Virus record (IMG/VR): IMGVR_UViG_3300045930_000317
Span: 1-21,079 of that record
Source of the DNA: a virus
Direction: 5' to 3' (one strand)
DNA: 21,079 bases
Part shown: positions 5,957-20,396 of the stretch, piece after piece
How the letters are laid out: each line of letters starts with the position of its first letter
How positions within the stretch are numbered: the first letter of the stretch is position 1
The notes under the pieces: model-generated
Seen by the model: only the letters and a program-made list of their open reading frames with translations
Database searches by the model: none
What the model was told of the DNA's origin: nothing
Program-made: the position numbers and the translations under genes

Positions 5957-6001
5957 TAATCCGGCGCGTCCGGCGCCGGATGCGCCGGATGCGCCGGATT
6001 A
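5957..6001. repeat. REP-like GC-rich inverted repeat cluster
   Basis: An 11-bp perfect inverted repeat (5957-5967/5991-6001) encloses a further 12-bp palindrome (5969-5980), and the 9-mer ATGCGCCGG is repeated in tandem at 5980-5997. The whole stretch is made of four versions of TCCGGCGC or its complement. It fills the gap between the W-like gene and the gene ending at 6026. It could be a REP-type element, a weak terminator or an mRNA-stabilising hairpin. Confidence 0.6.
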
Positions 6002-6294: not shown

Positions 6295-7080
6295 TCAAAG
6301 GATAGTGTATTTGGGATAGGGCAGGGACGGGGGCAGCTCGAGGCGGGCCTGGCGGTCGAGGCCCCACGCATATTTATGGTTGCCGGCGTGTCGTAGCGGC
6401 CGGGTGATAATGGGCAGCCAGGCGGCTGCCCACTCCCGCAAATCACGTCCAGGCCGATCGGCGCCGTGGGCGATCAGCAGCTCGGCGGTGTAGCGCCAGC
6501 CCTTCGCGCCGGCCTGCAGCTTGGAAATAGCACGGGCAGATAGGACCGATCCGTCGGGCAGTAGCCGCAGGGTGCGGCGCGTCGCGCGGCCCAGGTAGAC
6601 GCCATTGTGGGCTTGGTAGATCGTCCCAATATGTCCGGGGAAAACTATGACTCCGGCGGCTGTCCGGCGCCGCACCGGATCGCTAAAGCTGACCACGCCG
6701 CGGGCGCCCTCGCGGTGGAGCAGCTCGAAGCACCTGGCCAAGAACCAGGTCTCGCCATTGCCGGGGACTGTGTCGAGCAGCACAAAGCGGCCCAGCTCGC
6801 GGGCGTCCAGGGCGGGCATGGGGAAGGTATTAGTCAGGACCAGGTCATTGCACGGGTGCGAAAATACGGCCACGCCGGCCAGGCGTCCGCGGGTATATAG
6901 GCCAAACCGATCGCGGGCAGCCGGGTAGGTGCCGCTGTAGTGGTGTTGCTCAACAAACCGCTTGGGCTCGGTGTCGTTATCGATCGGCGCGACCTCATAG
7001 CGTCGCGGGTCGATGACCTCGCCGGCGGGGCGGTAGCTGTCGCGACGGTCGCGCCAGCGCTGGTTACTCGTCGCGATCAT
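6295..7080 (-). CDS. Mom-like DNA-modification protein
   Basis: The 261-residue product resembles the phage Mu Mom family, GNAT-fold proteins that modify adenine in phage DNA to block host restriction. Seen in order: E-Q-H-H-Y-S-G-T-Y-P (44-53); G-L-Y-T-R-G-R-L-A-G-V-A-V-F (60-73); E-L-G-R-F-V-L-L-D (95-103); N-G-E-T-W-F-L-A-R (108-116); V-S-F-S-D-P (130-135); G-T-I-Y-Q-A-H-N-G-V-Y-L-G (152-164, like the Y-x-A-x-N-W-x-Y-x-G signature); and a terminal L-P-Y-P-K (253-257). The start at 7080 is an ATG with a small hairpin 7 nt upstream. Upstream in-frame codons run through the 49-bp repeat and are probably leader. Its neighbours are unknown accessory genes, and no Com-like zinc-finger gene lies next to it. 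Function is inferred from motifs. Confidence 0.75.
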   Translation of the reverse strand: MIATSNQRWRDRRDSYRPAGEVIDPRRYEVAPIDNDTEPKRFVEQHHYSGTYPAARDRFGLYTRGRLAGVAVFSHPCNDLVLTNTFPMPALDARELGRFVLLDTVPGNGETWFLARCFELLHREGARGVVSFSDPVRRRTAAGVIVFPGHIGTIYQAHNGVYLGRATRRTLRLLPDGSVLSARAISKLQAGAKGWRYTAELLIAHGADRPGRDLREWAAAWLPIITRPLRHAGNHKYAWGLDRQARLELPPSLPYPKYTIL

Positions 7081-7087
7081 CGAATTA

Positions 7088-7102
7088 CTGCCGCGGGGGC
7101 AG
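7088..7102 (-). promoter_or_regulatory. Start-proximal hairpin before the Mom-like gene
   Basis: On the minus strand CTGCC, a 5-nt loop and GGCAG form a 5-bp stem that ends 7 nt before the ATG at 7080. GAGG lies just before it. The same hairpin, with a 6-nt loop, precedes the gene starting at 7615. Its position suggests control of ribosome access. Confidence 0.5.
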
Positions 7103-7133
7103 CCTCGAAACGGGGAACAAACGGGCAACAAAT

Positions 7134-7182
7134 AGGCCGCGCGGCCGGGGACGATCCGGCCAGGTGCCAGCGCGCGGCGGGG
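7134..7182. repeat. 49-bp direct repeat, copy 1 (leader of the Mom-like gene)
   Basis: It is identical over 49 bases to 7685-7733, and each copy lies 50-70 bases upstream of an ATG. It contains GGCCGCGCGGCC (12-bp palindrome) and a GGCCGG/CCGGCC hairpin on the minus strand. It also covers the end of the gap after the gene ending at 7190. Confidence 0.85.
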
Positions 7183-7189
7183 CATCGTC

Positions 7190-8215: not shown

Positions 8216-8911
8216 TTAACGGGCGAAAGCGGCGGGGCTCGGTGCCTCGGTGCCGTCTTGGATTGCTGCCAGCTCGGCGGAGCAGGCGGCCAGGTATTTG
8301 CGCAGCCGATTGGCCAGGCCGCGCGTGGTGGTCAGGATCGGGAGCACGCAAAACGGATGGGCGGCGCCGTCGCGCCGATCGTCGAGGCGCTCGGCGGCGC
8401 CTGGCCGCCGAAATACGGCGGGCGGCAGCCAGCGGGCGTATGGGTGGGCCTGATACCAGGCCACAATGGCGCCGTCCGTGCGGTACTCAGCCGCGGACCA
8501 TTGGCGGAGCAGGGCCATTACTTCGGACGATTGGGCGGCCGATCGGGCCAGCTCCTCGCGGGCCTGGGCGGCAGCCTCGAGGCGGGCCGCGTCGGCCATT
8601 AAGCGGCGGACCAGCTCGGGCGATACGCTGGCGTAGTGCTCGATGCAAGTACTGCCGACAATGGCCGTCCGGCCGTCGCGCAGGTGGTGCAGCGTGAACA
8701 AATAGCGCAGCCCCTGGTGGCCGCAGCTACATTTTGTAACCCTTCCGCATGCGGCATAGTTTAGTGAATTGTTTGACCCTATTTCCAGGCCTATTTGACC
8801 AACTATTTCGCGTGCACAAGCGTACCCTACTGCCCCCCCCTTTGGGTCCTTCCAAGGGCATGGCCGCGGGGGGGCGTAGCCCCCATCGATCCACTTTTTT
8901 GTGCACAACAC
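8216..8911 (-). CDS. Zinc-finger-like phage protein with coiled coil; start uncertain
   Basis: The frame encodes up to 231 residues. A probable zinc-binding block lies at residues 55-92: Cys55, C-S-C-G-H (61-65), then G-S-T-C-I-E-H-Y (86-93). A helical Ala/Glu/Arg-rich stretch follows (about 100-140), then a Pro/Arg-rich C-terminus. Such a C-x-C-G-H...G-S-x-C-I-E-H block occurs in phage proteins of unknown role. The only listed start codon before the zinc block is a TTG at 8911, and residues 1-45 read through a hairpin-rich, G-run-containing stretch. An ATG at 8915 in another frame has GGA just upstream, and a frame change at the 8-C/G run (8833-8840) would join it to this protein. The true N-terminus is therefore open. 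Confidence 0.6.
   Translation of the reverse strand: MLCTKKWIDGGYAPPRPCPWKDPKGGAVGYACAREIVGQIGLEIGSNNSLNYAACGRVTKCSCGHQGLRYLFTLHHLRDGRTAIVGSTCIEHYASVSPELVRRLMADAARLEAAAQAREELARSAAQSSEVMALLRQWSAAEYRTDGAIVAWYQAHPYARWLPPAVFRRPGAAERLDDRRDGAAHPFCVLPILTTTRGLANRLRKYLAACSAELAAIQDGTEAPSPAAFAR
8833..8884. promoter_or_regulatory. GC-rich hairpin cluster near the 5' end of the zinc-finger gene
   Basis: A run of eight C (8833-8840) can pair with seven G (8868-8874). Alternatively GGGGGC (8870-8875) pairs with GCCCCC (8879-8884) around a 3-nt loop, so the G-run can choose between two partners. On the plus strand TTTTTT follows some 11 bases after the second hairpin. It may be a leader structure or a weak plus-strand terminator. 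Confidence 0.35.
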
Positions 8912-8952: not shown

Positions 8953-8980
8953 TTGACCCAATCTGCTTGAAAAGTAGAAT
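8953..8980 (+). promoter_or_regulatory. Sigma-70-type promoter for the plus-strand cassette
   Basis: TTGACC (8953-8958), a 16-bp spacer and TAGAAT (8975-8980) match the -35 and -10 consensus with one mismatch each. The predicted start point (about 8986-8989) coincides with the first arm of the 13-bp inverted repeat, which contains ACTAGCAA, half of the dispersed palindrome. A regulator bound there would block this promoter. Confidence 0.6.
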
Positions 8981-8988
8981 GCTCCGCG

Positions 8989-9082
8989 CGACTAGCAATC
9001 GTCTCGATCACTTGGCCACTGGGTATGCCCTCGGCGCGGTGCTATCTCTCGATTGCTAGTCGGAACTAGCCCGCGCCGAGGG
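8989..9082 (+). promoter_or_regulatory. Structured leader with two interleaved perfect inverted repeats
   Basis: Repeat 1 pairs 8989-9001 with 9050-9062 (13 bp). Repeat 2 pairs 9028-9039 with 9071-9082 (12 bp). The pairs cross, so the RNA could form an H-type pseudoknot (loops of 26, 10 and 8 nt) or switch between two exclusive stems. The 3' arm of repeat 2 includes GAGGG, the likely Shine-Dalgarno of the gene at 9093. A degenerate copy of the dispersed palindrome (TTGCTAGT-CGGA-ACTAGC, 9053-9070) lies inside. Confidence 0.65.
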
Positions 9083-9092
9083 AATCTGGCTG

Positions 9093-9545
9093 ATGACGCA
9101 GCGCAACGATGAAACGCGCGGTGAATACTTAGAAAGAATTCGGCGCGAGTACCACCGCCCAGAGCTGACGATCGGTGAGTTGGAACAGAGAAAGGAAAAC
9201 GAGCGAAAGCGCAATCGTCTGTATTACCACAACAACCGGGGCCGCATCCGAGCGGCCGCTCGATCGCCGGCTGGCCGCAAGAAAAATCGGCAACATCAAC
9301 ATGCATGGCGGGCGAAAAATCCTGAACGGGAACGCGCGATCAATAGGAAATCGGCGGCTGTATATCGACTTCGGCATCCCCAAAAGGTGCGCGAAAGTAA
9401 GCGGCGTGCGAGTCGGTTGCGTTACCAACGCAAGAGGTTTGACCAGTTGGAACTCGAATTAACTATTGCAGAAGCACAACTGGCGGGCCGGGCGGCTGCT
9501 GGCGTGCTAAAAACTCCCGCCCGTGACAAACGGAGTGACCCATGA
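9093..9545 (+). CDS. Highly basic nucleic-acid-binding-like protein
   Basis: The product is 150 residues and very rich in Arg and Lys. It contains a loosely repeated ~20-residue helical motif, R-N-R-L-Y-Y-H-N-N-R-G-R-I-R, W-R-A-K-N-P-E-R-E-R-A-I-N-R and Y-R-L-R-H-P-Q-K-V-R-E-S-K-R. Such N-P-E-K/R repeats occur before HNH nuclease domains in many phage proteins, but no HNH domain follows here; a short Leu/Glu helix (L-E-L-E-L-T-I-A-E-A-Q-L) does. It is the first gene of the plus-strand cassette, with GAGGG about 10 nt before the ATG inside a possible stem. Its stop overlaps the next start (ATGA). DNA or RNA binding is inferred from charge; function is unknown. Confidence 0.7.
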   Translation: MTQRNDETRGEYLERIRREYHRPELTIGELEQRKENERKRNRLYYHNNRGRIRAAARSPAGRKKNRQHQHAWRAKNPERERAINRKSAAVYRLRHPQKVRESKRRASRLRYQRKRFDQLELELTIAEAQLAGRAAAGVLKTPARDKRSDP

Positions 9546-10183
9546 CGGCAACAGTAACACGGACAGTTTCGGCGATCGAGCGTTATCTGGCTTCACACCC
9601 AGATCTGCAGGATGAGGTTGATCGTCTGCGAAGCGTCGATTCTCAAGATACGTTGCAGGAGTGTTTTAGCCTGCTCATGCAATCGTATGAGGAGCGACTG
9701 TTTTTGATGGCCGTAGTCTGCGAGAAGGCAATTGCAGAGGGGTGGGTGCTGGATCTCGGGAAGGCACTCAAGAAAACGCTGATGGGTATAGTTCGCGGCG
9801 AGACTTCTGTTGCCCTGATTGCCAATCGCGATGTAGATCCTGGCCTAAAAACCCTGGCGCTCAAGCGATTGAACGCCCGCGATCAAGAATTAGTCGCCAA
9901 CGATGCACGCATCCAGGTGGTCGATGAAGGTGGCGACGTGCGAATGCAGAAATTTTCGGAATTGACCGACAGTCTTCGATCTCAGGTAATTGGCAAAAAT
10001 GGTCTTAGGAGGCCCGACGAGCAGCGTGAATGGCAGAGCGACCAGCAGCGACGAGAACGGGCGATTGCGGAAACCAGGTTCTTTTTTGATGATGACGCGC
10101 AAGCGGTAGTCGTGCGTAAGGCGAATACTGTACTTCGTAAACGCGACATTGAAAAAATCGCTAAGCACTTCGAGCTCCTATGA
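9542..10183 (+). CDS. Unknown 213-residue protein of the plus-strand cassette
   Basis: This is a mainly helical protein: I-E-R-Y-L-A-S-H-P-D-L-Q-D-E-V-D-R-L near the start, then E-E-R-L-F-L-M-A-V-V-C-E-K-A-I-A-E-G-W and a charged C-terminal half ending R-D-I-E-K-I-A-K-H-F-E-L-L. No catalytic motif or membrane segment is evident. Its ATG overlaps the stop of the gene before it, and its TGA overlaps the start of the next (ATGA in both cases), so the three are translationally coupled. The gene has visibly lower GC and more A/T-ending codons than the flanking phage genes, which suggests separate acquisition. Function is not recognised. Confidence 0.7.
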   Translation: MTATVTRTVSAIERYLASHPDLQDEVDRLRSVDSQDTLQECFSLLMQSYEERLFLMAVVCEKAIAEGWVLDLGKALKKTLMGIVRGETSVALIANRDVDPGLKTLALKRLNARDQELVANDARIQVVDEGGDVRMQKFSELTDSLRSQVIGKNGLRRPDEQREWQSDQQRRERAIAETRFFFDDDAQAVVVRKANTVLRKRDIEKIAKHFELL

Positions 10184-10347
10184 CCGTCAAAGAGCTGATC
10201 GAGATTCTCCAGCGGATGCGGCCGGAGTGTGAGCTGCACGTGCTCGATCAGCAATACGGCGAAATGAGCGACCAGCCGCTGGTCGAGGTCGAGCCATGGG
10301 GGCCGGGCGGCTTAGAAAAGTGTGATGGCGCGGCGCTTCGCGCCTGA
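10180..10347 (+). CDS. 55-residue small phage protein
   Basis: The frame begins M-T-V-K-E-L-I-E-I-L-Q-R-M-R-P-E-C-E-L and ends near D-G-A-A-L-R-A. An M-T-V-K-E-L-I-x-x-L-x-x-M-x-P start followed by a short beta strand and acidic V-E-V-E-P resembles a frequent small phage/plasmid protein type of unknown function. It overlaps the preceding stop (ATGA). Its TGA is directly followed by TCA, the reverse complement of the stop of the convergent gene, so the two genes meet end to end with no terminator between. Its higher GC fits the surrounding phage better than the two genes before it. Confidence 0.7.
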   Translation: MTVKELIEILQRMRPECELHVLDQQYGEMSDQPLVEVEPWGPGGLEKCDGAALRA

Positions 10348-10734
10348 TCAAGCCGAAGGGGCGGTGGCGGCGTCGTATTGCTCGAGGAGGTAGCGGAGCA
10401 CGTCGCTGGCTTTGTCGATGTGCAGGCCGTTGGCCAGCCTGGTGTCGCTGTCGTGGAGCGCAAAATACAGCTTGGTGAAGGCAATTTGCAGCGTTCGATC
10501 GGTGAGCCGCAGCTCCACCTTGTGGAAGCGGCGGCGATAGCTCTTATCATCCGGCCGGGGCGGCGACGGTGCGGGCAGCTCGACGATGACCGTGCCGCCC
10601 AGCGTGGCAACGGGCGTCGGCTCGATGGTGAAGCGTTCCGGCGGCAGCTCGAAGCCGGGGTGATCTTCCGACAGCTCGGTAATGGCGGTGGGGGCGAACG
10701 GGTTGGCGTGCTTCTTGCCGTTTTTCTTGCTCAT
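10348..10734 (-). CDS. Small unknown protein next to the terminase
   Basis: The product is 128 residues from an ATG at 10734 with AAGGA about 9 nt upstream. The N-terminus is Lys/Pro-rich and probably disordered (M-S-K-K-N-G-K-K-H-A-N-P-F). The C-terminal half looks folded: R-R-R-F-H-K-V-E-L-R-L-T-D, L-Q-I-A-F-T-K-L-Y-F-A-L, D-V-L-R-Y-L-L-E-Q-Y-D. It follows the large terminase gene by 20 bases and is the last minus-strand gene before the plus-strand cassette. Head-gene control or DNA packaging is possible, but nothing in the sequence shows it. Confidence 0.6.
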   Translation of the reverse strand: MSKKNGKKHANPFAPTAITELSEDHPGFELPPERFTIEPTPVATLGGTVIVELPAPSPPRPDDKSYRRRFHKVELRLTDRTLQIAFTKLYFALHDSDTRLANGLHIDKASDVLRYLLEQYDAATAPSA

Positions 10735-13494: not shown

Positions 13495-13515
13495 TTTGCT
13501 AGTTCGACTAGCAAA
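13495..13515. repeat. Dispersed palindrome, copy B, upstream of the terminase operon
   Basis: TTTGCTAGT (13495-13503), spacer TCG, ACTAGCAAA (13507-13515): 9-bp perfect arms. It fills most of the gap between the gene ending at 13518 and the small terminase start, where an operator or roadblock site for the packaging genes could act. Confidence 0.7.
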
Positions 13516-13517
13516 AC

Positions 13518-13856
13518 CTACGGGGCGGGCGGCGCCGGGGGCGTGGTCAGCGCGTCCAGGCTGGTAAACTTCGCGCTGATTGCTTCGGCGCGGGTCTGGA
13601 CGCTGGCCAGGATGGCCTGCGTTTCGGGTGGCAACTGGCCGCTGGCCGCCACCAGCTTGGCGATTTCGTCCTTGAGGGACGCCACGTCGGCGGCCAGGCC
13701 GTCGTGCGCGACGTCGAGGTTGTCGAAAGCGGCGGTCACTGCCGCCTGGAAATCGTCGATCTGTGCCATGATTTTGTCCTCGGAATTTCTAAGCAGCCGC
13801 GCTATCACTCGTAGAGCGGCGGCGTCGAACGTGTGGTGATGGCGAAACGTGAACAT
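13518..13856 (-). CDS. Small coiled-coil phage protein
   Basis: From the ATG at 13856 this gives 112 residues, starting M-F-T-F-R-H-H-H-T-F. A long helix follows (A-L-R-V-I-A-R-L-L-R-N-S-E-D-K-I-M-A-Q-I-D-D-F), then a segment V-A-S-L-K-D-E-I-A-K-L-V-A and a Pro/Ala tail. His-rich starts followed by M-A/T-x-x-D-D-helices are common in small phage proteins near lysis or tail genes; their role is unknown. A second start at 13769 (83 residues, M-A-Q-I-D-D-F) has the better Shine-Dalgarno (AGGA, 8 nt). The longer start is chosen because it continues the helix and leaves only a 13-nt gap to the gene before it. Confidence 0.62.
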   Translation of the reverse strand: MFTFRHHHTFDAAALRVIARLLRNSEDKIMAQIDDFQAAVTAAFDNLDVAHDGLAADVASLKDEIAKLVAASGQLPPETQAILASVQTRAEAISAKFTSLDALTTPPAPPAP

Positions 13857-13869
13857 CAAAAAATGCGGT

Positions 13870-14142
13870 TTACGGCCGGGCGGCCGTATGGTTGTGCGAG
13901 TCTTTCCAGACACCGCTGCGCTGATCGTCGCGGATCTCTTTGAGCAGGTCCTTGAGGGTTTCCATTGCCGACGCGGTCCGCAGCGAAGCCTCGGAATAGT
14001 TTTTGTTGGCTTCAACCATCGGCAGGATCAGGTCGTAACGGATAATTCCCAGCAGGATCATTACCACGATGGCGGCGAAGCCGTACCGCCCGACAATCGC
14101 TTTCCAGTCGTAGGTGCCGCCGTTGCCGTTGGTGTCGCTCAT
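13870..14142 (-). CDS. Single-pass membrane protein, holin-like candidate
   Basis: The product is 90 residues from the ATG at 14142, which overlaps the stop of the nuclease gene by 4 bases (ATGA). One clear membrane segment lies at about 20-43 (Y-G-F-A-A-I-V-V-M-I-L-L-G-I-I-R-Y), followed by a charged helix (E-T-L-K-D-L-L-K-E-I-R-D-D-Q-R-S-G) and a His-rich end. Upstream in-frame codons overlap the nuclease gene and are Pro/His/Arg-rich, so they are not used. Small one-pass proteins with a charged tail near the terminase are often holin or spanin components. That role is inferred from position only. Confidence 0.65.
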   Translation of the reverse strand: MSDTNGNGGTYDWKAIVGRYGFAAIVVMILLGIIRYDLILPMVEANKNYSEASLRTASAMETLKDLLKEIRDDQRSGVWKDSHNHTAARP

Positions 14143-14572: not shown

Positions 14573-14826
14573 TTCACAAAGAAGGCGCTGCAGCTCGGCG
14601 CGACGACGGCCGCGGGTGCGTACACGGGCGCCGCATACACGGCGGCAGGTGCGACGACGGGCGCGGCGTACACTGGCGCGGCGACGACCGGAGCAACCAC
14701 CACGGCCGCGCGGTGATGCGACACTCGCACGCGAGCGCGGAAAGCCCGCGGGTGGGTGGCCTGGGCCGGCTGGGCCAGGCAGGATACCGCCAACAGGGCG
14801 GCGCCGATCAGGGCGATGCGTTTCAT
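14569..14826 (-). CDS. Secreted Ala/Pro/Val-rich protein with repeats
   Basis: The product is 85 residues with an N-terminal signal peptide (M-K-R-I-A-L-I-G-A-A-L-L-A-V-S-C-L-A-Q-P-A-Q-A), either cleaved after A-Q-A or, less likely, lipidated at Cys16. The mature part starts with Arg/His residues and then consists of V-V-A-x-P-V-Y-A-A-P repeats, ending C-S-A-F-F-V-K. The ATG has GGAG 7 nt upstream and overlaps the stop of the cytochrome-like gene (ATGA). Similar low-complexity secreted proteins are frequent in Planctomycetes. A structural or spanin-like role at the cell envelope is possible. Confidence 0.72.
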   Translation of the reverse strand: MKRIALIGAALLAVSCLAQPAQATHPRAFRARVRVSHHRAAVVVAPVVAAPVYAAPVVAPAAVYAAPVYAPAAVVAPSCSAFFVK

Positions 14827-15425
14827 TTGAATTCTCCACTCGGTAAGGGTTCAGGGACTTGCACGGGTGACGGCCGGTCTGCGGCCTGCTCGCGAGCCTC
14901 CAGATCGAGCAGCTCCTGCATGGCTAGGCCTTTGACCTCGGCCGCGATCTTGTGATCTTTGGGCATCGCGTCGCTGGCGATCGCGCGCAAGGATGCTGTG
15001 ATCTGCCAGCAGTCCATTGGCGTCTCGCCGTCGATCGTGATGCCGCTTTTCGGTGTGGGCCCGCTGTGACACTTGGCGCAGTGCTGGGAGAGCACGGATT
15101 TCTTGGCGGTCTGCGGCTGGCGGATGTTGGCGGTGGCGAGCTGGGCCACGATCTTAGGCACGGCCAGGCGGGCTACCTTTTCGGCCAGGGCCTCGGCCTC
15201 GATGTCGCGGCCAGCCTGGTAATAAATCGGCGCGGCATAGGCGGCGACGACCGGCGCCACGGCCACGGCCTGCTTGTGGACGAAAAACTGGCGGCAGTTG
15301 TCGGCACGGGCCGCAGAAGTGCAGGCCAGCAGCAGCAGGATCGTGAGGATCCAAAAGGCGACCGTAGCGATCAGGTCCCAATTCCAATGTGGCAGTTTCA
15401 GGTCGCGAATTAGTTTGCTTGCCAT
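14823..15425 (-). CDS. Exported protein with one c-type haem motif (cytochrome c-like)
   Basis: The product is 200 residues from the ATG at 15425. A hydrophobic segment (about 18-35, ending L-L-L-L-A-C at a lipobox-like site with Cys35) would export or anchor it. Residues 116-120 are C-A-K-C-H, a c-type haem-binding motif, preceded by V-L-S-Q-H and followed by S-G. A plausible axial Met is in S-D-A-M-P (Met154). The C-terminal part is Glu-rich with Pro. The start overlaps the end of the gene before it by 16 bp. A longer frame to 15857 overlaps that gene and is Pro/Arg-rich, so it is rejected. Haem attachment needs the host's cytochrome c maturation machinery. Why a phage would encode it is unclear. 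Confidence 0.72.
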   Translation of the reverse strand: MASKLIRDLKLPHWNWDLIATVAFWILTILLLLACTSAARADNCRQFFVHKQAVAVAPVVAAYAAPIYYQAGRDIEAEALAEKVARLAVPKIVAQLATANIRQPQTAKKSVLSQHCAKCHSGPTPKSGITIDGETPMDCWQITASLRAIASDAMPKDHKIAAEVKGLAMQELLDLEAREQAADRPSPVQVPEPLPSGEFK

Positions 15426-16711
15426 AGGGCGATTACCTTTTGAGCGAGTGCGAAACTGGCCTGCCACTGTTCGCGGCTGATCGGTACGTCTTGCGCTGCC
15501 AGAGCCAGGCGGCCGGTGAGCTGATACGTGCGCGAATAGTCGCCCAGCGCCAGCCGCCACTCGTCGCGCGTGGTGTAAAGCTCGCGGGCCTGCTGCTCGA
15601 GGGTGAGCGGGGCGTCGTAGAGCTGGACCAGCAGGCGGAAGGCGGCGGCGTTCTGCTGGGGCGTCAGGCCATTGCAGAGCCCCACTGCGGCCGCATAGTC
15701 CTCGTTGTTGCGGTTGATCTCCTTGGCGATCGGTGAATCCAGATAGCGGTCGATCTCCTGCTGGGTGGCCTTGTCGTGCGTGTAGATCCGGGCGCCGCTG
15801 AGAATGTACGACCGATATTGATCGAGCGTCGGGTGCCGTAGGCCCTCTGTGTGGCAAACGATGCAGCTCAAGGTGTTGCGGATCTCGACGCCGCGCGTGC
15901 CGGTGCTGTCGGTGACGATGTCGGCCGGCGCTTTCTCCTGCCGTTTACCCTGACCGTCGGCCAAAAAATAGGCTTGCAGGCTGCCGGACTGGCCGGCGTA
16001 ATGCTTGGGGATGGCCGCGATCAGCTCGCTGGCGTCGTGCTTTGGCGGACGGGCGGCGAGATTTTCCAGCGGGTCGGTCGCGCAGGCGATGGCCCGGCTG
16101 TCATACGTCTGCCAGCTATAGCCGCGGTTGCCGGTGGGGTGGTTTTCCATCAGGCGGGTACGCTGCACGGCCACGCCGCTGTCGCCCTCGATGCGGCCGA
16201 AGAATAGATCCGGCTTCTCGTTGACAGCCCAAAACTTGCGAAATTCCTTGTCGGTCTTCGGCGGCGTGCCGTAAAGCAACTGGTACTGGCCGTCGGCCGT
16301 GAGGTTGGAGTCGGGGAGTGCGGCGACGAACCATAGGCCGCTGACCACCAGCGGGATCTGGGTCAGGTGGGCCGTGTCGGGGCGGTAGGCCGGCACGTAG
16401 TGCGTGCGAATTACCGCCGGCCAGGTCTTTTCCCAGCCCAGCCCCAGCAGGTCGAGGCGCAACAGGTTGGTGCCTGGCACGGCGACGGGGAGCTGGTCGC
16501 CCAGGTACGGCTTGCTGCTGAGTGAGGCGGCCGTGAAGGCGATCACCTTGGCCAATGCCTCGCGGTGCTCGGGTGCGACGATCGACGTCGTCAGGTAGGC
16601 CGTGTACGGCTGCTGCGCGGGTGGCAGCGTCTGCAGATCGGAAAACGCGGCGTCGCTGTCAGAGCCAGCGGCCAGCACAAGCATTGCGGTGAGTATGGCC
16701 GACATCCTCAC
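15410..16711 (-). CDS. Secreted CxxCH protein (c-type cytochrome-like), 433 residues
   Basis: The N-terminus (M-R-M-S-A-I-L-T-A-M-L-V-L-A-A-G-S) is a signal peptide. One haem motif C-I-V-C-H lies at 283-287, in N-T-L-S-C-I-V-C-H-T-E-G-L. No Met follows Met188, so any axial ligand must be another residue, such as a His or Lys after the motif. The C-terminal ~130 residues are helical (Y-T-T-R-D-E-W-R-L-A-L-G-D-Y-S-R). The start, GTG at 16711, overlaps the stop of the metalloprotease gene (GTGA); an ATG at 16705 is possible. Long secreted proteins with a single CxxCH are typical of Planctomycetes. Its presence inside a phage late operon is unusual. Confidence 0.68.
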   Translation of the reverse strand: MRMSAILTAMLVLAAGSDSDAAFSDLQTLPPAQQPYTAYLTTSIVAPEHREALAKVIAFTAASLSSKPYLGDQLPVAVPGTNLLRLDLLGLGWEKTWPAVIRTHYVPAYRPDTAHLTQIPLVVSGLWFVAALPDSNLTADGQYQLLYGTPPKTDKEFRKFWAVNEKPDLFFGRIEGDSGVAVQRTRLMENHPTGNRGYSWQTYDSRAIACATDPLENLAARPPKHDASELIAAIPKHYAGQSGSLQAYFLADGQGKRQEKAPADIVTDSTGTRGVEIRNTLSCIVCHTEGLRHPTLDQYRSYILSGARIYTHDKATQQEIDRYLDSPIAKEINRNNEDYAAAVGLCNGLTPQQNAAAFRLLVQLYDAPLTLEQQARELYTTRDEWRLALGDYSRTYQLTGRLALAAQDVPISREQWQASFALAQKVIALWQAN

Positions 16712-17340
16712 GCTACCCTCTTGAATGTTCCCTTGCCGCGGTACTTCGCGCCGCTTATTTCAAACTCCACGGAGCCGGCCAGTTCTGACGGCAGGTTGGC
16801 CGGCGGCGGCTGGCTGCTGATCGGCGGGCCGTACAGCTTGCGGCCATAGCTGACATCGTCCTCCTGCGGCAAGTAAATGCGCGGCGAGTAGGTCGGGTTC
16901 ATCAAGTCGGCGTCGCCGTCGGCCGAAATGTGCTGCATGCCCAGGCAGTGGCCGTTCTCATGCGTCAGCACGGCCAGCAAGTTGATTTTTCCGGCCGGCG
17001 GATTGTCACTGATCACCCACGGGCCCACTCGATCGACGCGCATCAAGAGATTGACGCCGCCGCCATAGGGGAGCTGCTGATCGGCCAGAATCCCGTTGGG
17101 GCCGTCGAGGTCGGCGACGCTCACGATCTGCGTCGTGTCGGTTTTCGGGTTGGCGTGCTTATCGACGGTGATGCCGATCACCGCTGCCCAGCGCTTCCAG
17201 GCCTCCATCACGGCCGCTTCAAAATCCTCGCGCGAGATTCCCGGCAGCACGTCGCGGCAAAAGAACGTCACGCGACTGCTGGGCAGCTTGACTTGCGCAG
17301 CACCGGCGCCGAACGCTTCACTGACTCCGCAAAAGTGCAC
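16708..17340 (-). CDS. Matrixin-type (M10) zinc metalloprotease
   Basis: The product is 210 residues. The metzincin signature H-E-N-G-H-C-L-G-M-Q-H (127-137) gives zinc ligands His127, His131 and His137 and catalytic Glu128. The Met-turn is D-L-M-N-P-T-Y (145-151, Met147). Upstream lies a matrixin-like N-domain with A-V-M-E-A-W-K-R-W-A-A-V-I-G-I-T-V (43-59). No signal peptide is visible at the GTG start (17340), which has AGGCGG about 8 nt upstream, so it may reach its target during lysis or in the virion. It would cleave peptide bonds in extracellular or envelope proteins. It overlaps the next gene by GTGA. Confidence 0.82.
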   Translation of the reverse strand: MHFCGVSEAFGAGAAQVKLPSSRVTFFCRDVLPGISREDFEAAVMEAWKRWAAVIGITVDKHANPKTDTTQIVSVADLDGPNGILADQQLPYGGGVNLLMRVDRVGPWVISDNPPAGKINLLAVLTHENGHCLGMQHISADGDADLMNPTYSPRIYLPQEDDVSYGRKLYGPPISSQPPPANLPSELAGSVEFEISGAKYRGKGTFKRVA

Positions 17341-17745: not shown

Positions 17746-18177
17746 TCAATGGCGCGGCCTCTTCCCTGTCCCAGTGCGGCCAGGCTTTCGCGTGCCGTGG
17801 GCGATGCAGATCGTGACGTTGAGCAGCTCGCCGCCGGCCGGACACCGCCACGGCTTGCAGGGCTGGGGGGTATTGGCCTGGTTGATCAGGCTGCGAAAGC
17901 GGGCAATGGTCTGATACCGCCAGGCTGTTTTTCGGCCGACGCCCGCCTCGCGGGCGATGCGTGGTCCGCTATATCCCTTGGCCACCAGCCGGGTGACGAG
18001 CTGCCGCCGCTTGGGGGGCAGGCCCGGCCGGCGATGCGGCAATTTATGCCGCTGGGCGATGCGGTGCAGGCGGCTTTTGGACACGGACAATATGTCGGCG
18101 GCCGCCCGGAATGTCGCGTTTTTTGCCAATAACGCGCGCAGGCCCGCCAGCACTTGATTTGCCGTAAGTGGCTGCAA
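17746..18177 (-). CDS. Two-HTH DNA-binding protein with degenerate zinc motif
   Basis: The product is 143 residues. The first helix-turn-helix lies at about 21-44 (A-T-F-R-A-A-A-D-I-L-S-V-S-K-S-R-L-H-R-I-A) and the second at about 66-90 (G-Y-S-G-P-R-I-A-R-E-A-G-V-G-R-K-T-A-W-R-Y). A C-x4-C-P-A-G-G block (107-116) followed by C-I-A-H (124-127) looks like a zinc ribbon with one Cys replaced. The C-terminus is basic. The start is a TTG at 18177, or a GTG at 18153; neither has a good Shine-Dalgarno. Recombinase-type HTH pairs suggest a transcription regulator. As the last gene before the late operon, it could control it. Confidence 0.65.
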   Translation of the reverse strand: MQPLTANQVLAGLRALLAKNATFRAAADILSVSKSRLHRIAQRHKLPHRRPGLPPKRRQLVTRLVAKGYSGPRIAREAGVGRKTAWRYQTIARFRSLINQANTPQPCKPWRCPAGGELLNVTICIAHGTRKPGRTGTGKRPRH

Positions 18178-19575: not shown

Positions 19576-19791
19576 ATGCTAGTGCTGTCCCGCAAGCGGA
19601 ATGAATCGATCGTGATCGCCGACAACATCGTGGTCACCGTGGTGGAAGTCCACGGCGACAAGGTGCGGCTGGGAATTGAGGCGCCGATCGAAGTGCCCGT
19701 GCACCGGCGCGAGGTTTATGAGGCGATCCAGCGGGACCGGGCCCGCGAGGCGGCGGCAGCGAGCGAGCAGGCCGATGGATCGGCAAACTGA
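19576..19791 (+). CDS. csrA: CsrA/RsmA-type translational regulator
   Basis: The product is 71 residues and matches CsrA along its length: M-L-V-L-S-R-K-R-N-E-S-I-V-I at the N-terminus, K-V-R-L-G-I-E-A-P in the middle and V-P-V-H-R-R-E-V-Y (RNA-contact Leu4 and Arg44 both present). CsrA dimers bind GGA motifs in mRNA leaders, usually over the Shine-Dalgarno, and repress translation. Its own AAGGAG lies 7 nt before the ATG, so autoregulation is possible. It overlaps the sigma-factor gene by 17 bases, which links the two in translation. In a phage it may reprogram host mRNAs or time phage expression. Confidence 0.95.
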   Translation: MLVLSRKRNESIVIADNIVVTVVEVHGDKVRLGIEAPIEVPVHRREVYEAIQRDRAREAAAASEQADGSAN

Positions 19792-20383
19792 GTATGAGCT
19801 GATCGACCAGGCCCAGGCTGGAAACGAGCAGGCCAAGCTGGCGCTGATCGACCAGCACACGCGAGCCCTGTGGAAAATGGCCCGCAGCACCAGGGCCCGC
19901 GGCGAAACGCTCGAGGATTTATATCAGTGGGCCGTGCTGTTCTTTTTGGAAGCCGTCCAAAAGTTCAAGGCGGTTTTTAATGTGCGGCTGTCCACGTTTA
20001 GCTATCAGCACGTGCGGCAGCGGGTGTATGGCGTGGCCTGGCGTAGCGGCGTCATTCACCTGCCCAACCAGGCCAAAAAAACTGATGCCGGTAAATGCGA
20101 TCTGGCCATGCGGCTCTCGGGAATTACGGACGGGAATTTCAAGTTTGTCGAGCGGCACCTGTCATGCCCGCCGCCCGTGGCCCTGGAAGACGGCGAGGAG
20201 CGGGCGCTGTTCTATGCCGCGCTCGCGCGGCTGCCGAACAGGCTTCGCCACGTGCTCGAGCTGCGGCTCTCGGGGCTGACGCTGGGGGCCGTCGGCGATG
20301 AGCTGGGAGTGAGCAAGGAGCGCGTCCGCCAGATCGAAAATGAGGGGATCCAGCGGCTGCGGCTGATTTTGGGCGTTTGCTAG
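19775..20383 (+). CDS. Sigma-70 family factor (FliA/SigB-like), phage-encoded
   Basis: The product is 202 residues. Region 2 lies at about 17-90: D-L-Y-Q-W-A-V-L-F-F-L-E-A-V (48-61) and R-L-S-T-F-S-Y-Q-H-V-R-Q-R-V-Y (71-85), the core-binding and -10-recognition segments. Region 4 lies at about 145-199: L-P-N-R-L-R-H-V-L-E-L-R (153-164) and an HTH L-G-A-V-G-D-E-L-G-V-S-K-E-R-V-R-Q-I-E-N (170-189) for -35 recognition. Region 1.1 is absent and region 3 reduced. I choose the ATG at 19775 because upstream codons overlap csrA and are Arg-rich. The stop lies inside the palindrome at 20376. It may direct the late promoters of this phage. Confidence 0.9.
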   Translation: MDRQTEYELIDQAQAGNEQAKLALIDQHTRALWKMARSTRARGETLEDLYQWAVLFFLEAVQKFKAVFNVRLSTFSYQHVRQRVYGVAWRSGVIHLPNQAKKTDAGKCDLAMRLSGITDGNFKFVERHLSCPPPVALEDGEERALFYAALARLPNRLRHVLELRLSGLTLGAVGDELGVSKERVRQIENEGIQRLRLILGVC

Positions 20384-20396
20384 TCGGACTAGCAAA
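20376..20396. repeat. Dispersed palindrome, copy C, at the end of the sigma gene
   Basis: TTTGCTAGT (20376-20384), spacer CGG, ACTAGCAAA (20388-20396). It contains the sigma-factor stop codon and lies between convergent genes, 4 bases from the ACTGGA hairpin. Its core is identical to copy A. Confidence 0.7.

Follow-up and report, generated by a model that had tools for sequence, protein, structure and literature searches.

The cassette and its leader

The stretch of DNA analysed here (the window) is a 21,079-base IMG/VR virus record (IMGVR_UViG_3300045930_000317) from an uncultured phage. Its genes, among them those encoding the terminase, a lambda-type portal, an S49 peptidase and a Mom-like protein, are carried mainly on the minus strand. 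A three-gene cassette at 9093-10347 lies on the plus strand inside this block, between the minus-strand genes at 8216-8911 and 10348-10734, and is antisense within the late-gene strand. In its leader, two inverted repeats, S1 and S2, cross each other. The features of the leader and the cassette are as follows.

8953-8980, plus strand: sigma-70-like promoter, TTGACC-16-TAGAAT, 10/12 matches
8989-9001, plus strand: 5' arm of S1, CGACTAGCAATCG, containing the putative operator half-site GACTAGCAA at 8990-8998
9028-9044, plus strand: 5' arm of S2, CCCTCGGCGCGG at 9028-9039, followed by a bulged base and GCTA at 9041-9044
9050-9062, plus strand: 3' arm of S1, CGATTGCTAGTCG, containing the putative operator half-site TTGCTAGTC at 9053-9061
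9067-9082, plus strand: 3' arm of S2, TAGC followed by CCGCGCCGAGGG, overlying the Shine-Dalgarno
9078-9083, plus strand: probable Shine-Dalgarno, GAGGGA, recognized from sequence, 9 nt 5' of the ATG
9093-9545, plus strand: cassette gene 1, a 150-aa basic, all-helical protein without a known family
9542-10183, plus strand: cassette gene 2, 213 aa, with a match to DUF6388 below the cut-off
10180-10347, plus strand: cassette gene 3, 55 aa, without a family

The promoter had been described in the initial annotation as near-consensus. Its 10 of 12 matches are present, although sites of this quality have a chance expectation of 0.8 per 1.8 kb of the region, so that about one would be found there anyway. 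The spacing predicts a transcript start at G8986 or G8988, immediately 5' of S1, and the first arm of S1 does hold a palindrome half-site at this predicted start.

No family above the cut-off was found for any of the three cassette proteins. None of them showed an HTH family either, so that the cassette has no HTH-type Aca such as an acr-aca operon would contain. The basic 150-aa protein was modelled from its single sequence as five helices (mean pLDDT 86.5). This all-helical, high-confidence model had no match in the PDB, and it lends no evidence to the earlier suggestion that the leader is the target of the basic protein itself. The predicted structure of the 213-aa protein was too low in confidence for use.

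Searches for homologues of the cassette and leader, by peptide patterns in IMG/VR and also in phages and in plasmids, returned none. Among 76 portal relatives, only one marginal match to the basic protein was obtained (L055, E 0.009), and the terminase-portal stretch of another relative (L004) carries no homologue of the cassette; the 74 Mom relatives likewise gave none. An exact-pattern scan for S1-like pairs yielded five matches, all in unrelated sequence, and that for S2-like pairs yielded no match. The Mom-like DNA modification gene itself lies at 6295-7185 of the window; of the 74 IMG/VR loci with relatives of this gene, only one has the window's structural genes too.

Crossing repeats and predicted folds of the leader

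S1 (8989-9001/9050-9062) is a 13-bp repeat at 100% identity. S2 is a perfect repeat of 12 bp (9028-9039/9071-9082) within a 15-nt pair of 93% identity, and its hairpin reaches 16 bp with one bulge. The two perfect interleaved repeats thus lie, to the base, where they had first been annotated, and the last arm does cover the Shine-Dalgarno, as 9067-9082 includes GAGGGA. The window contains four perfect repeats that reach or exceed 12 bp within a span of 120 bases, against 0.36 expected, and S1 and S2 are the sole crossing pair among them. Dinucleotide shuffling of the whole window gave a 12/12 crossing in 0 of 150 shuffles and a 10/10 crossing in three. When positions 8953-9092 were shuffled 20,000 times, a repeat of at least 12 bp was obtained in 0.04% of the shuffles and a 10/10 crossing in none.

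The claim that such a crossing is very unlikely to arise by chance is borne out fully for S2 by these shuffles, but not for S1, whose arms are built from half-sites found throughout the genome. S1 consists of two half-sites paired with each other and a 3-bp extension, UCG/CGA. The repeated half-site of the phage supplies 9 to 10 of the 13 bp of S1, which ties S1 to the rest of the genome and leaves the chance argument fully valid for S2 only. The operator sequence accounts for a part of S1 and does not account for S2.

Folding of the growing transcript predicts that S1 is formed by nucleotide 9062, with an energy of -35.5 kcal/mol, and that the best fold up to nucleotide 9076 includes S1, which encloses the 5' arm of S2. 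S1 is displaced by the S2 hairpin once nucleotide 9082 is reached. In the transcript spanning 8987-9130, the predicted energies are -54.3 kcal/mol for the S1 state and -61.0 kcal/mol for the S2 state. The Shine-Dalgarno at 9078-9083 is mostly open in the S1 state (0.64 to 0.99 unpaired), whereas the S2 state closes both the Shine-Dalgarno and the AUG. S2 remains the more stable state for transcripts that start at 8986 or 8988, with ends between 9095 and 9150, and at temperatures of 15 to 60 C; its advantage at 37 C is about 3 to 10 kcal/mol. The leader also has a folding z of -4.0 against 200 shuffles, and its folding z is the lowest among the 32 gene starts examined in the window. Two alternative stable folds with opposite exposure of the Shine-Dalgarno, as in a two-state attenuator, are thereby predicted, and the initial proposal of a two-state switch agrees with this order of events, in which S1 forms early with the Shine-Dalgarno open and S2 hides it later. 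In terms of the energy models, folding favours a two-state leader.

No Rfam covariance model matched the leader. Pieces resembling a type III hammerhead were noticed (CTGATGA at 9090-9096 and GAAA at 9111-9114, with a 7-bp pair CCGCGCG/CGCGCGG at 8983-8989/9115-9121). A hammerhead ribozyme was rejected, as stem II, stem I and a U before the cleavage site are lacking and no Rfam ribozyme matched.

A palindrome repeated in the phage group

The half-site in the arms of S1 belongs to a palindrome, TTGCTAGTNNNACTAGCAA, with three exact copies elsewhere in the window against 0.02 expected. This palindrome is also the reason why its half, ACTAGCAA, is found at nine places in the window (0.13 expected). 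The full copies in the window, for which no strand is assigned, are the following.

2590-2608: exact palindrome, TTGCTAGTCGGACTAGCAA, just 3' of the S49 peptidase gene
9053-9072: degenerate full palindrome, TTGCTAGTCGGAACTAGCCC, with a 4-nt centre and 2 mismatches (0.03 expected)
13496-13514: exact palindrome, TTGCTAGTTCGACTAGCAA, between the gene at 13518-14015 and terS
20377-20395: exact palindrome, TTGCTAGTCGGACTAGCAA, on the TAG stop of the sigma-factor gene, between convergent genes

In the leader, a half-site coincides with the predicted start point and is followed 63 bp downstream by the degenerate full copy, a distance between half-site centres of about six helical turns. As the upstream site is only a half and the downstream site departs from the motif by its 4-nt centre and two mismatches, both may bind weakly. 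The degenerate copy is also able to form a 6-bp RNA hairpin of its own (-6.5 kcal/mol).

A scan of IMG/VR revealed the palindrome in multiple copies elsewhere in only two contigs, G001 and G002, whose portal proteins share 75% identity with that of the window. These two relatives contribute nine further sites; their contigs stop short of the region expected to hold the leader. In the twelve sites listed for the window, G001 and G002, which are not all independent since the site after the S49 gene is common to G001 and G002, the arms are invariant in eleven and carry one change in the other (G001 1113), while the three central bases vary. No further site within four mismatches was found in these three sequences. 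None of the twelve listed sites shows the compensated changes in its arms that would be expected of hairpins kept for their structure. The nearly invariant arms, the variable centre and the lack of compensated changes suggest that the motif is read as sequence, and we infer that the palindrome is a putative sequence-specific phage operator. The possible operator of the initial annotation gains support from the three exact intergenic copies in the window and the nine sites in two relatives.

The sites are mainly intergenic, and some are at promoters, a count that is approximate as some fall within mechanically called open reading frames of doubtful reality. Several lie on or just after stop codons and some between convergent genes. 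Repetition of the motif is far above chance in the window and its close relatives, as in a set of operators or stoperators. Two of the G001 sites occupy the interval from an HTH_3 repressor-like gene to a divergent neighbour, and one of the two is just 5' of a promoter-like TTGACG/TATAGT. This stretch of G001 (L106, 440-1180), with its HTH_3 gene, two palindromes and divergent promoter-like sequence, is probably an immunity region of this relative. A search of GTDB species genomes with a stricter form of the palindrome gave no match, and neither did a search of 80 genomes from the phylum to which the host of one relative belongs. The palindrome was rejected as an intrinsic terminator, since T and A runs are on the wrong sides on both strands. 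A helix-turn-helix protein (HTH_23) at 17746-18177 of the window is a candidate regulator.

Proposed dual control of the cassette and competing explanations

We tentatively propose a dual cis-regulatory leader for this accessory three-gene cassette, in which a putative operator at the start point is combined with a sequestering hairpin (probability roughly 0.4). A phage regulator of TTGCTAGTNNNACTAGCAA, acting at many intergenic sites, would also occupy the +1 half-site as well as the degenerate palindrome at about +66 and would thereby limit transcription. After transcription, the same half-sites are predicted to pair as S1, which would be the first to form and would leave the Shine-Dalgarno open. 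Once the polymerase has moved beyond 9082, the more stable S2 would form and hide the Shine-Dalgarno and the start codon. Translation would then be set by the lifetime of S1, and the open state may be held by the pace of transcription, by binding of a protein or by a ribosome that arrives early. The transcription step of this scheme is based on motif statistics and the folding step on energy models. What has been demonstrated is confined to features of the sequence and to predicted folds, from which a regulator, a ligand and an effect of the leader can be proposed. In a more speculative form, which we hold to be improbable, the regulator would read the half-sites twice, as promoter DNA and as the S1 RNA helix, and would couple repression of transcription to a kinetic switch of translation in one 100-base element.

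The main rival is control through DNA operators only, in which the regulator would block the promoter, or loop it, through two operator copies placed on either side of the start point. S1 would then be a by-product of oppositely oriented half-sites, and the RNA would fold without a regulatory role. The share of S1 made up by the repeated half-site, the spacing of its centres by about six helical turns and the conservation of the palindrome arms in sequence, not by compensatory change, are all consistent with such control. However, it leaves unexplained the S2 hairpin, which covers the Shine-Dalgarno with 12 to 16 bp, when a repeat of at least 12 bp arises in 0.04% of local shuffles, as well as the UCG/CGA pairs of S1 beyond the half-sites, and we regard it as rather unlikely. 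Those additional pairs also bear on constitutive damping or insulation, in which a stable S2 keeps translation of the cassette low or limits expression from read-through RNA, with no switch involved. The dominance of S2 in the equilibrium fold at every temperature tested and the antisense position of the cassette in the late-gene strand both fit this explanation, but S1 would have to be an accident, yet its arms run 3 bp past the half-sites; damping is given little weight.

A pseudoknot, which the predicted switch does not require, would use S1 and S2 together as a compact H-type fold that blocks ribosome binding and is possibly stabilized by a protein or ligand. The two helices cross without a base in common, and their stacking sums are about -24.8 and -31.7 kcal/mol. 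If about 9.6 is charged as the usual penalty for a pseudoknot, the hand-estimated total comes within a few kcal/mol of the S2-only fold. On the other hand, just 8 nt (9063-9070) would have to bridge the 13-bp S1, or 4 nt with the extended S2, and Rfam offers no match; we hold this fold to be slightly less probable still than damping. Least probable is an origin of the palindromes as host-derived, REP-like mobile hairpins, with what is left of one or two such elements in the leader. Hairpins of this type, with GTAGCA as a conserved foot, do occur in the relatives L075 and L089, and GC-rich hairpins lie near several palindromes of G001 and G002. However, no conserved GTAG-type foot accompanies the palindromes and the flanks of the 12 listed sites are unconserved, and the motif, besides its absence from the GTDB search in its stricter form, is multi-copy among viral contigs in this phage group only.

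The proposed dual leader can be compared with several known systems. In cluster A mycobacteriophages such as L5 and Bxb1, group-specific operators and stoperators are repeated over the genome, most of them away from promoters; those of L5 are 13-bp asymmetric sites, present in 20 to 30 copies per genome and mostly in one orientation (PMC6550527). The palindrome resembles them as a short motif specific to a phage group and repeated genome-wide, with some sites at promoters and most not, and also in its positions on or after stop codons and between convergent genes. Unlike those of L5, the window sites are 19-bp and symmetric, with 3 exact copies in 21 kb. Aca-controlled anti-CRISPR operons carry two similar inverted repeats (IR1 and IR2) in and near one promoter (PMC9410906). 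The cassette is similarly an accessory phage operon with a core promoter, a site at this promoter and a similar second site nearby, but it has no HTH gene or known Acr, and its site is part of a genome-wide set. Aca2 of phage ZF40 is reportedly a DNA- and RNA-binding repressor. As in that case, transcription makes the operator sequence part of a structured leader close to the ribosome-binding site; S1, however, brings together half-sites that lie apart from each other, and the Shine-Dalgarno would be exposed by it rather than hidden. Translational attenuators and the expression platforms of riboswitches alternate between a sequestor and an antisequestor. The leader likewise has two alternative hairpins, of which the later covers the Shine-Dalgarno, but unlike in riboswitch platforms, no Rfam aptamer was found in it.

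If the dual leader is correct, the phage has reused pieces of its own operator as a switch in RNA that protects an accessory cassette; a double lock on DNA and RNA of this type is known so far for very few regulators. For this uncultured phage group, which has a Mom-like DNA modification gene, the palindrome also marks out a regulon that can be tested.

Several other features were recorded in the window and its relatives. The REP-like hairpins of L075 and L089 have GTAGCA/GCGAAC feet (for example, L075 4566, 10981, 11051 and 14563), and several of them lie between genes of these related phages. Nested palindromes rich in CCGGCGC are found 5' of the gene preceding the portal, at 5957-6001 in the window and 1959-2045 in L010; they are strong predicted hairpins, with a z of -3.1 at the window gene start. 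Genes at 14823-15857 and 15410-16711 of this phage record contain CxxCH cytochrome-c-like motifs, the former with a weak Pfam match only. A Matrixin-type metalloprotease (Pfam M10) is encoded at 16708-17340, and a CsrA gene and a sigma-70-like open frame overlap in different frames at 19576-20383.
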